Below are positions 18,646 to 30,373 of a DNA stretch of 40,058 bases, in pieces (positions within the stretch are counted from its first letter, which is position 1; every line of letters starts with the position of its first letter). The position numbers were made by a program, and so were the translations under genes. Below the pieces are notes generated by a model. That model was given only the letters and a program-made list of their open reading frames with translations, was not told where the DNA came from and did not search any database. The DNA is from Acidimicrobiia bacterium (GTDB lineage: Bacteria > Actinomycetota > Acidimicrobiia > Spongiisociales > UBA5794), in the NCBI GenBank assembly GCA_030066265.1, contig JASJCF010000002.1, positions 1 through 40,058 on the forward strand, in the 5' to 3' direction.

Positions 18646-19014
18646 TCAGCCGGCCAGCAGCTTCTCGACCTGGACGCGGAGATCGAGCGGGCGGAAGGGC
18701 TTGGTCATGAACGAATCCGCCCCGCCCTTGGCAGCTTTGTCGGCCATCTCGGGCTGGGCGTGCGCCGTGAGGACCAACACCTTGATCGATGCGGTCTCGT
18801 GGTCGTTGCGGATCCTCCGGAGCACCTCCCAGCCGTCGAGCCCGGGAAGGCCGATGTCCAAGACGACCGCGTCGGGCCGGTGGTCCTTGATGGCGTCGAG
18901 GCCACCGACACCGTCGGCGGCCGACGAAACCTCGACCCCGAGTACGCGTAGGCAGACTTCGATCAGTCTGCGGACGCTTGCAGAGTCCTCGATCACGAGC
19001 ACACGCTGTTCCAC
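18646..19014 (-). CDS. single-domain response regulator (CheY-like receiver)
   Basis: This 122-residue protein is a complete receiver domain and nothing more. The acidic pocket is Glu9-Asp10 (VLVIEDSASVRRL), the phosphoacceptor is Asp53 in AVVLDIGLPGLDGW, and the switch residues are Thr83 (VLVLTAHA) and Lys105 (FMTKPFRPLDL). It has no DNA-binding or enzymatic output domain and no adjacent histidine kinase, so it probably acts through protein contact or as a phosphorelay intermediate. The GTG at 19014 is preferred over the ORF-track ATG 37 codons upstream: the receiver fold begins there and a GATAGT hexamer lies exactly 6 nt before it. Confidence 0.88.
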   Translation of the reverse strand: MEQRVLVIEDSASVRRLIEVCLRVLGVEVSSAADGVGGLDAIKDHRPDAVVLDIGLPGLDGWEVLRRIRNDHETASIKVLVLTAHAQPEMADKAAKGGADSFMTKPFRPLDLRVQVEKLLAG

Positions 19015-19020
19015 ACGTTG

Positions 19021-19026
19021 ACTATC
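19021..19026 (-). promoter_or_regulatory. leaderless-type -10 of the response regulator gene
   Basis: GATAGT on the minus strand ends 6 nt before the GTG at 19014. It supports that start codon, since no Shine-Dalgarno sequence is present. Confidence 0.4.
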
Positions 19027-19153
19027 GGTCGGTCCCAGACCCGACTTCAGCGGTTGTTGGCAGATCCAGGACGGAGTGGTGATGCCGCAGAGCCGGTCCG
19101 TCGGGCGTAGCCTGGGCGACGGCAATACCGCTCCTCGATCGCGTCAAGGAGGC

Positions 19154-20744: not shown

Positions 20745-21680
20745 CTAGGCGCCGCTTCCGTCGTAGGTGTACCAGATGACGGCGTTGCCGAGGGTGTCGG
20801 AGACGATCACCGTGTCACCGCCGTTGGACCACACCGGAGTATCGGAACACCACCGGATCGCATTCGCCGGCCCGCCTTCACAGCCCGTGATCACGGTGAC
20901 GGACTCGCCAGGTGCGAGAACGGTGCCGTCGGGGAACGCCAGGCGATTCGAGGAGCTCTCATCTCGGAGGATCCACCCCGAAATGGCAACACGCCCGTAT
21001 CCCTCGTTGACGATCGTGACGAACTCGTCGGCCAGCGCATCGTCATCGGGACCGGATGGATCGAACGAGACCTCGCCGATGCGGATCACCGGGCGATCGG
21101 CGCGCAAGCCTTCATCGTCGCCGCAGGCGAACGTCCCCCACATGCCTTTGCCCGACTGGAACGCCCTGGCTTCGAACGCCTTCCACTCGGCGGCGTACTC
21201 GTGTCCGTTCTGGAGGGCGACGGCGTTGCCGTCCCGGACGAGCTCGGCGTTGACGAGTTCGATGCCGTCAGGTGACTCGAGGTAGACGTAGCGAAGAGCC
21301 CGGCCGAAGGAATCGAGGTCCTCCTCACCGGCGATCAGGAGAACCTCCCGGCCGTTGAGCCTGTTGGCGAGGACGGTGGCGGCTTCAGGCCCCCAGCATT
21401 CGGTCATCTCCGGCGCATTGATCCCGAGCATCCGGACGTCGGTCGGGATACCGTCGATGGACACCGAGAGCGTGTCGCCGTCGGTGACGTCGAGGACGGA
21501 GCCCGTCACCCGCTCCTCCTCGGGAGGCAGGGTGGGTGTCGTGGTGGACGGAGGGGCCCCTCTCGGCAGTGTGGAGGTGGTCGTGGTGGTCTCTGCGAAC
21601 TCCGGCGCCTGGGGTCGGGTGTCGCACGCCACCACGAGGAAGCCGACCATCACGATGACCGATGCCAGCCGTCTGTGCAT
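20745..21680 (-). CDS. secreted thermonuclease-like lipoprotein with lamin-tail domain
   Basis: This 311-residue lipoprotein has signal peptide MHRRLASVIVMVGFLVVAC with lipidated Cys19, then a Thr/Pro linker (TTTTTSTLP...STTTPTLPP). A staphylococcal-nuclease domain follows (about 57-180) with DVTDGDTLSVSI, VRMLGINAPE and LDSFGRALRYVYL, which supply the Arg-Glu-Arg catalytic triad and calcium-site Asp. The C-terminal region (about 200-311) looks like a lamin-tail (LTD) domain: ADEFVTIVNEG, ISGWILRDES, FPDGTVLAPGESVTVITG. It should degrade DNA or RNA outside the membrane, perhaps for nutrient scavenging. The ATG at 21680 is set by the signal peptide and a TACCGT hexamer 6 nt upstream. It is convergent with pruA and divergent from an SDR gene. 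Confidence 0.88.
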   Translation of the reverse strand: MHRRLASVIVMVGFLVVACDTRPQAPEFAETTTTTSTLPRGAPPSTTTPTLPPEEERVTGSVLDVTDGDTLSVSIDGIPTDVRMLGINAPEMTECWGPEAATVLANRLNGREVLLIAGEEDLDSFGRALRYVYLESPDGIELVNAELVRDGNAVALQNGHEYAAEWKAFEARAFQSGKGMWGTFACGDDEGLRADRPVIRIGEVSFDPSGPDDDALADEFVTIVNEGYGRVAISGWILRDESSSNRLAFPDGTVLAPGESVTVITGCEGGPANAIRWCSDTPVWSNGGDTVIVSDTLGNAVIWYTYDGSGA

Positions 21681-21686
21681 GACGGA

Positions 21687-21692
21687 ACGGTA
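21687..21692 (-). promoter_or_regulatory. leaderless-type -10 of the nuclease lipoprotein gene
   Basis: TACCGT on the minus strand is 6 nt before the ATG. A 17-bp spacer upstream leads exactly to the first half-site of the phased operator array (21710-21715), which occupies the -35 position. Confidence 0.45.
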
Positions 21693-21709
21693 GGGGCCGA
21701 TTGCCTGAA

Positions 21710-21748
21710 GTCGGCTGACTGCCGACAGCGCGCCGACGTATAGTCGGC
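21710..21748. promoter_or_regulatory. phased array of four inverted half-sites over a divergent promoter
   Basis: The sequence reads GTCGGC-N5-GCCGAC-N5-GCCGAC-N5-GTCGGC, at 21710, 21721, 21732 and 21743. Each half-site is exact and each step is exactly 11 bp, giving two palindromes side by side. The array covers the -35 and -10 of the rightward SDR promoter and the -35 position of the leftward nuclease promoter. It looks like a cooperative repressor operator; the regulator is not identified. Confidence 0.6.
21715..21744 (+). promoter_or_regulatory. sigma70-type promoter of the SDR gene
   Basis: CTGACT (21715-21720) and TATAGT (21739-21744), spaced 18 bp apart, form the best promoter in the window. 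The leader carries AGGAAG (21769-21774), 6 nt before the ATG at 21781. Confidence 0.55.
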
Positions 21749-21780: not shown

Positions 21781-22542
21781 ATGGATGCGTTCAATCTGAC
21801 CGACAAGGTCGCCCTGGTCACGGGCGGCAACAACGGCATCGGCCTGGGGATGGCCGAGGGCCTCGCGGGAGCGGGAGCAGACGTGGTGATCTGGGGTCGG
21901 AACGCCGAACGCAACGAGAGCGCAGCGGAGTCGGTCGGGCGCCACGGCACTCGGGTGCTCGCCCTCCGGGTCGATGTCGCCGACGAAGCCCAGGTCGTCG
22001 AGGCATTCGGTGAGACGGTCGAAGCGATGGGTCACGTCGATGCTGTCTTCGCAAACGCGGGCGTGGGCGCTGCGGGAACCCGGTTCGACGAGATGACGAC
22101 GGATGAATGGCGAAGGATCTTCGGCGTGAACATGGAAGGTGTCTTCTGGACCTTTCGGGAGGCGGTCAGACACATGAAGCCGAGGGGATCCGGATCCTTG
22201 GTGGTCACCTCGTCGCTGTCGGCCGATCTCGGGTTCTCCCGCGGCGAGCACTACGCCGCAACGAAGGCAGGTGTTCGCGCGCTGATCCAGGGTCTCGCTG
22301 TCGAGTACGGGAAGTACGGCATCAGGGCGAACGCCATCTCGCCAGGCTGGGTCGTGACCGGCATGACTGATGCCTTCATCGAAGGTGATCAATTCGAGTC
22401 GGTGGTCAAGCCCCGCATCCCCCTCGGTAGGTGGGGTCATCCCGACGACTTCGCCGGTATCGCGGTGTACCTCGCGTCCGACGCGTCGGCGTGGCACACC
22501 GGGGACACCATCACCGTCGATGGGGGGTTCCTCCAGCGGTAG
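21781..22542 (+). CDS. SDR family oxidoreductase (FabG-like)
   Basis: This 253-residue classical SDR has cofactor motif TGGNNGIG (15-21), ANAG at 91-94, catalytic Ser145, Tyr158 and Lys162 (VVTSSLSAD, HYAATKAG) and the C-terminal substrate loop IRANAISPGWVVTGMTD, ending DTITVDGGF. These are features of the FabG/3-oxoacyl reductase and gluconate-dehydrogenase-like groups, so it reduces or oxidises a small alcohol or beta-hydroxyacyl group with NAD(P). It has a good ribosome site and its own promoter under the phased operator array, which implies regulated expression. Another SDR and a thiolase follow, suggesting a link to acyl-chain metabolism. The substrate is unknown. Confidence 0.9.
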   Translation: MDAFNLTDKVALVTGGNNGIGLGMAEGLAGAGADVVIWGRNAERNESAAESVGRHGTRVLALRVDVADEAQVVEAFGETVEAMGHVDAVFANAGVGAAGTRFDEMTTDEWRRIFGVNMEGVFWTFREAVRHMKPRGSGSLVVTSSLSADLGFSRGEHYAATKAGVRALIQGLAVEYGKYGIRANAISPGWVVTGMTDAFIEGDQFESVVKPRIPLGRWGHPDDFAGIAVYLASDASAWHTGDTITVDGGFLQR

Positions 22543-28844: not shown

Positions 28845-28901
28845 GGAAACGGGCATGTTTCCCGAAATGCAACTTTGCGTACTGATAAGAAATGCTACTC
28901 T
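28845..28901. promoter_or_regulatory. aceB-ramB divergent control region with putative RamB box
   Basis: Three elements are visible. A palindrome GGAAAC-N6-GTTTCC spans 28845-28862. A direct repeat GAAATGC is at 28864 and 28889, 25 bp apart. AACTTTGC (28871-28878) after the first copy matches the core of the RamB box as I recall it from Corynebacterium; the second copy is followed by TACTCTTTCG. TACTCT (28896-28901) could be the regulator's own -10. Confidence 0.5.
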
Positions 28902-28930
28902 TTCGTCGATCGCTAGGGAAAGCGCGCTTT

Positions 28931-30373
28931 ATGATCGATCCGCTGGTGTTCGGCCACCGGGTTCGCCACTATCGCAAGCGGGCCGGAATGACCCTCGACG
29001 ACCTCGGTGCGAGCGTCGGGCGGCCGGCGCCGTACCTCTCGCTGCTCGAGAACGGGAAGAAGGAACCAAAGCTCAGCCTCATCAACGAGCTGTCCGTTGC
29101 CTTGGGTGTGCCCGTCGCCGAGCTGCTCGAGGCCGAACCTCCGTCACACCGCGCCGACCTCGAGGTGACGATCGAACGCGCCCAGCGTGATCAGGCCTAC
29201 CGGGATCTCGGACTGCCGTATCTCAAGCCCTCGGCCCGGATTCCGGACGTGGCGCTCGAGCACATCGTTGCGCTGTACGAAGAGCTTCGGGGCCGCGACA
29301 ACGCCGCCCCGTTCACCCGCGACGAGGCTCGTGCGGCGAATGCCCAGCTGCGAGCCGAGATGACCGAGCAGGGCAACTACTTCCCCGACGTGGAACGCAT
29401 CGCGGCCGCAGCGGTGGAGGCGGCCGGGTTTGCCACGCAGGGAGCGTTGTCCAAGGGCGACTTGAACACCCTCGCCGAATACTTCGGTTTCAAGGTCATC
29501 CGCACGCCGGATGTCCCGGCATCGGTCCGCTCCGTGACCGACACGCGGAACGGGAAGATCTTCGTGCATGGGCGCGACAGCTACGACTCCAAACAAACGC
29601 GCTCGGTGATCCTGCAGACACTCGGGCACTTTGCGCTGGGCCATCCTGAGCCGAAGGACTTCAGGGACTTCCTCCGCCAGCGGGTCGAGGCGAACTACTT
29701 CGCCGGGGCCGTGCTGGTGCCCGAGGCGACCGCCGTGCCATTCCTCTCGTCGGCCAAGTCCGACCGCAATCTGTCGGTCGAGGACCTCAAGGATCGGTTC
29801 TTCGTGTCGTACGAGATGGCCGGTCACCGATTCACCAACCTCGCAACACGCCATCTCGGTCTCGAAACCCACTTCGTGCGCTCCGACGACCAGGGGATCA
29901 TCTGGAAGGCCTACGAGAACAACGGCGTGCCGTTCCCCAAGAACTCCGCAGGCGCCATCGAAGGGCAGCGGCTCTGTCGGGAGTGGGGAACCCGTCAGGC
30001 GTTCTCCTCAGACGCTCGGTACACGATCCACTACCAGTACACCGACACTCCGTCCGGGAGCTACTGGTGTGCGACCTTCGTCGAGACGGCTCGGGAACCT
30101 GCTTCGGCGATCACCGTCGGCGTGCGCTTCGAGGATGCGAAGTGGTTCCGCGGCTGGAACACCGAACGCCGTTCCGTGTCACGATGTCCCGACGGCGACT
30201 GCTGCCGTCACGTGTCCGAGCGCATGGTGGACCAGTGGTTCGGGCAGGCCCGTGCCTCGGTGAGGCCCAACTCGCACATGCTCGCGGCCATGCCCGTCGA
30301 GACCCTCCCGGGTGTCGACATGGTCGAGATCTACGAATTCCTCACGAGGCAGGAGAACGAAGCCTTCCAGTGA
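28931..30373 (+). CDS. ramB: RamB/ScfR-type transcriptional regulator (XRE HTH, short-chain fatty acyl regulator)
   Basis: This 480-residue regulator has an N-terminal XRE helix-turn-helix (about 8-65, [38 protein letters not shown]). A degenerate IrrE/M78 peptidase-like domain follows: where catalytic members have HExxH, this reads [12 protein letters not shown], so the protease site is lost. The C-terminus is a DUF2083/ScfR-type domain ([22 protein letters not shown]). The C-terminal [12 protein letters not shown] (about 417-428) could hold an iron-sulfur cluster, as reported for mycobacterial PrpR, a relative. RamB-type proteins control acetate and glyoxylate genes, and the divergent aceB-aceA operon is the obvious target. 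Whether it acts on glyoxylate or methylcitrate genes is uncertain. I chose the ATG at 28931 from the HTH start; an ATG at 28892 is in frame. Confidence 0.85.

Follow-up and report, generated by a model that had tools for sequence, protein, structure and literature searches.

The intergenic gap and its phased half-sites

The window, by which we mean the whole 40,058-nucleotide stretch analyzed, contains an intergenic gap of about 100 bp between two divergent genes, one encoding a nuclease lipoprotein and the other an SDR oxidoreductase that is the first member of an SDR - SDR - thiolase set. Within this gap, positions 21710-21748 read GTCGGC-tgact-GCCGAC-agcgc-GCCGAC-gtata-GTCGGC, giving four half-sites in the orientation R-F-F-R. 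The genes, promoter elements, and sites are as follows.

20745-21680, minus strand: nuclease lipoprotein gene with SNase and lamin-tail domains (Pfam; orthologues)
21687-21692, minus strand: leftward -10, TACCGT; TANNNT in the same register at 11/11 syntenic loci
21707-21713, minus strand: upstream element CGACTTC (consensus CGANTTC), separated by 14 nt from the leftward -10 (11-locus ungapped alignment)
21710-21715, minus strand: half-site 1, GTCGGC, overlapping the conserved CGANTTC-like element of the leftward promoter
21710-21726, no strand: palindrome 1, GTCGGC-N5-GCCGAC, 17 bp, perfect
21715-21720, plus strand: rightward -35-like CTGACT, not conserved in orthologues
21721-21726, plus strand: half-site 2, GCCGAC, within the spacer between the rightward -35 and -10
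21732-21737, plus strand: half-site 3, GCCGAC, within the same spacer
21732-21748, no strand: palindrome 2, GCCGAC-N5-GTCGGC, 17 bp, perfect, its center 22 bp (two turns) from that of palindrome 1
21739-21744, plus strand: rightward -10, TATAGT; one TANNNT per orthologous region in all 11
21743-21748, minus strand: half-site 4, GTCGGC, overlapping the final two bases of the rightward -10
21781-22542, plus strand: SDR oxidoreductase gene (adh_short_C2; Pfam, orthologues), first of the SDR - SDR - thiolase set

The four exact half-sites described in the earlier note, which start at 21710, 21721, 21732, and 21743 and are each separated by 5 bp, were all found in the sequence, as were its two palindromes in strict 11-bp phasing. 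Since the palindrome centers are two turns apart, both lie on the same face of the helix. The array has the generic geometry of a two-dimer operator, that is, in-phase 17-bp palindromes with half-sites one turn apart, located over conserved -10 elements.

The promoter elements had also been placed correctly, both for CTGACT and TATAGT on the plus strand and for TACCGT on the minus strand, and both -10 elements were conserved in 11/11 loci. Specifically, six bases separate the leftward TACCGT from the ATG (21678-21680), and a TANNNT (mostly TACCGT) occurred exactly 6 nt before the ATG, in ungapped register, in all 11. Additionally, a CGANTTC-like element was present at a fixed distance of 14 nt from this -10 (TT in 11/11 loci, TTC in 8/11, and CGA in 7/11), and likely represents the -35 region of the leftward promoter. 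The full consensus, CGANTTC-N14-TANNNT-N6-ATG, was thus kept ungapped over 11 Acidimicrobiia loci (window 21678-21713; L040-L049), its upstream element being unusual. By analogy with mapped actinobacterial starts, the nuclease lipoprotein gene is probably leaderless. We also noted that lipoproteins combining SNase and lamin-tail domains (20745-21680; L040-L074) came almost exclusively from Acidimicrobiia and other MAGs of actinobacteria; the one haloarchaeal match, in Haladaptatus (L073), was weak.

On the rightward side, CTGACT is separated from TATAGT by an 18-nt spacer, and, leaving the leftward promoter aside, each of the 11 regions contained exactly one TANNNT. A shuffled region had at least one TANNNT with a probability between 0.18 and 0.71, which multiplied across all eleven gave 6e-6, a value that overstates the conservation of the rightward -10 because the regions are related.

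Orthologous loci with and without the array

The 11 intergenic regions compared included that of the window, the others coming from eight whole-genome relatives and from two genomes located by a GTDB contig scan. All were chosen for having the same divergent nuclease-lipoprotein/SDR pair, and, within the reach of the contigs, most also had the neighboring aldehyde dehydrogenase, the second SDR, and the thiolase. One locus, L046 (QQUL01000111.1, titled Armatimonadetes), is an Acidimicrobiia-like copy that is probably mislabelled or contaminated, and its intergenic region was close to that of L047.

The array was not found in any of the ten other syntenic loci, including that of the sole same-genus species found, which has 67% identity in both flanking proteins. 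The best placements in the ten regions matched 10-15 of the 24 fixed positions, and shuffles of the same regions averaged 11-13, with maxima of 15-17. A single copy of GCCGAC/GTCGGC was present in the gap at L040, L042, and L049, and none of the ten had two. Half-sites 2 and 3 had no counterpart in any of the relatives' regions. For half-site 1, the overlap with the leftward CGACTTC offers a promoter explanation for three of its six bases. The earlier note had put its operator at risk on just this comparison, and the half-sites were missing upstream of the orthologous SDR genes at 10/10 loci. A conserved operator that had drifted in sequence was likewise rejected, since phased inverted repeats were not in excess elsewhere among the regions, one unrelated perfect palindrome in L043 apart.

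Two other repeats were seen in relatives. In the L043 intergenic region (reverse-complement 2887-2979), the leftward promoter is covered by this perfect palindrome, GCGAGTTC-CAGC-GAACTCGC, which is unrelated to the array and has the conserved CGAGTTC element as one arm. In the relative L004, at 1331-1468, a 26-27 bp unit that contains GCCGAC is repeated six times immediately past the SDR gene at its 3′ end.

Loss or gain of operators is common at divergence of this order. The absence of the array from the relatives therefore counts against a conserved operator, but only weakly against one specific to the species, which is represented by one genome. On balance, we give an even chance to a double operator that is specific to the species or lineage and placed in the divergent promoter of the nuclease lipoprotein gene and the SDR - SDR - thiolase set.

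Chance, recurrence, and regulators

The close rival of a species-specific operator is coincidence, in which a common GC-rich word fell four times in phase by chance and was then picked out by a scan. GCCGAC/GTCGGC is indeed among the commonest 6-mers (rank index 25 of 2009), and the promoter elements impose part of the match, half-site 1 sharing the leftward CGA and half-site 4 lying on the rightward -10. That the array is not conserved while the promoters are, and that it lacks genomic enrichment, also fits coincidence. From 6-mer frequencies in 405 kb of this genome, arrays in which any 6-mer, irrespective of orientation, appears four times at steps of 11 bp were expected 0.0089 times per genome, or 0.00015 times per 40-kb window; with the steps widened to 9-13 bp, the genome figure was 0.044. 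When thousands of windows are scanned and other steps, word lengths, and arrangements are allowed, a few such arrays would arise by chance. The array is thus rare for one genome, yet not extreme for a large scan.

Other counts show how unusual the array is. The only N5 pairings and three-in-phase runs of GCCGAC/GTCGGC in the window were those in the array itself. Across 405,562 bases of the genome, no 6-mer gave a four-in-phase match at 9-13 bp steps except in the array, and when steps of 7-21 bp were allowed, all further matches were tandem repeats. A 4.8-Mb simulated sequence that preserved short-range composition had zero four-in-phase arrays at steps of 9-13 bp. Symmetric arrangements make up a quarter of all four-in-phase arrangements (0.0022 expected per genome at 11 bp), and the intergenic region had two exact inverted repeats where shuffles gave 0.19. 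Speaking against coincidence are the lack of any other non-tandem case in the 405 kb and the fact that symmetry, one-turn phasing, and position over two conserved promoters are jointly rarer than the bare count conveys. The strengths that we attach to operator and coincidence are matters of judgement, not of calculation, and by that judgement coincidence is a serious possibility that falls somewhat below an even chance.

Many short tandem arrays with 7- and 8-bp units (CGAGTCC, GCTCCTCA, GGCTCCTT, and others) were present on other contigs of the same genome (L075 2498-2793; L080 2704-2758; L083 41-100; L088 45-99 and 10024-10182).

The earlier note had also suggested a regulon operator, in which the array would be one of many genomic sites under a global regulator. 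Members of regulons are typically divergent and lack an adjoining regulator gene, and both features apply here. However, the palindrome was at background in the genome scan: given how often the half-site occurs, 3.2 exact copies of GTCGGC-N5-GCCGAC were expected and four were present, the reverse arrangement GCCGAC-N5-GTCGGC had two against 3.2, and with up to one mismatch there were 51 places against about 81 expected, i.e., no enrichment. The other exact copies were in coding DNA. Among the other exact and near places checked, 48 of 53 were inside coding-like ORFs, an approximate split since the ORF calls came from a simple codon-composition filter, and none of the remaining five was evidently a promoter. 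The four-site array with at most two mismatches recurred in only two of 394 other genomes of the class, at two mismatches in both; when three were allowed, it occurred at scattered places in 60 relatives. For this motif the regulon reading is therefore largely refuted, and we regard it as improbable; the putative operator serves one locus, and no regulon is recognizable by the motif. A direct-repeat reading in the style of response regulators was also rejected, with GCCGAC-N5-GCCGAC at seven places, against about 6.5 expected on both strands.

No regulator gene adjoined the array. The earlier note's statement that none is nearby must be qualified, since a RamB-like XRE/IrrE gene, which encodes the only DNA-binding regulator recognized in the window, is located about 7 kb away (28892-30373), next to the genes for malate synthase and isocitrate lyase. 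"RamB-like" here denotes architecture and neighborhood rather than family membership, the protein scoring 30.5 bits against a RamB cut-off of 700. The window's only GCAA-N2-TTGC palindrome (28869-28878) lies at the junction of this gene and malate synthase, which suggests that the RamB-like protein has a site other than the array; gene and palindrome look like a glyoxylate-shunt regulator and its site. The array itself was rejected as a RamB-type site, its half-site being GCCGAC and not of the GCAA/TTGC type found next to the RamB-like gene. A receiver-only response regulator was also present at 18646-19125, and neither protein is a good candidate for binding the array. The Pfam scans covered part of the window's ORFs.

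The least probable alternative, to which we attach very little weight, is that the palindromes work by forming hairpins or extruded DNA structures and not by binding a protein: a single strand does fold into two 6-bp stem-loops (-17.9 kcal/mol versus a shuffle mean of -8.7, z -5.7), but such folding holds for any exact palindrome, 6-bp stems are short for cruciform extrusion, and both inferred transcription starts lie downstream of the array, which would thus be absent from both mRNAs. An RNA hairpin or terminator was rejected as well, as there is no T-run and the array is outside both inferred transcripts.

A candidate double operator and its known counterparts

The species-specific operator is favored by the exact fourfold 11-bp phasing, by its symmetry, and by its overlap with promoter elements conserved in 11 loci, and is opposed by its absence at ten orthologous loci, by an unenriched palindrome, and by the lack of an adjoining regulator gene. 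The sites and their phasing were observed, as was their overlap with conserved promoters; from these we infer that a protein may bind here and repress, with a response from both genes. Specifically, a helix-turn-helix repressor whose gene lies elsewhere would bind as two dimers, one on each 17-bp palindrome. Bound two turns apart, and hence on the same helix face, the dimers would block the rightward -35/-10 and the leftward upstream element, shutting both genes. More tentatively, and with a probability well short of even, the operator may have newly arisen at this single locus, gained after the split from the sister species while the promoters stayed fixed, and may couple the nuclease lipoprotein gene to the SDR - SDR - thiolase set via a two-dimer regulator. 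Should the operator be real, it would provide a modest example of operator birth, with a control site gained in one lineage at a conserved divergent promoter whose own elements stayed fixed. The locus also illustrates that a striking phased array from one genome can fail both conservation and regulon tests.

A literature search by terms found no such array. The leftward promoter resembles the leaderless TANNNT promoters of actinobacteria in that its -10 is positioned 6 nt before the start codon: in Mycobacterium tuberculosis, TANNNT is centered 7-12 bp before starts and many mRNAs are leaderless (PMC3898074). The two differ in that no conserved -35 motif was found in M. tuberculosis, whereas the leftward gene here has a conserved CGANTTC-like element 14 nt upstream, and in that starts were mapped in M. 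tuberculosis while those of the window's genes are inferred (PMC3898074).

Paired-dimer operators of the TetR family (QacR, CprB) likewise have two dimers, as proposed here, on one short stretch of promoter DNA. CprB binds cooperatively, with two dimers on opposite sides of a 22-bp sequence, and the half-site word itself appears in the same paper within a primer (PMC4150764). In contrast to those dimers on opposite sides, the palindromes of the array abut without overlap, have centers two turns apart, and share one face. The TetR-family systems differ further in that no TetR gene was found adjoining the array.

The array also has a likeness in layout to Cro/CI-type (lambda-like) operators, although the setting differs, with no phage genes or Cro/CI gene near the array, palindromes that are both exact and share an identical half-site, and an XRE protein in the window, the RamB-like one, that has a different candidate site. 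Operators of the Cro/CI type are palindromes of 17 bp whose half-sites are roughly one turn apart and which are set serially between divergent promoters, and the array is like them in its 17-bp size, in its half-site spacing, and in its serial placement.
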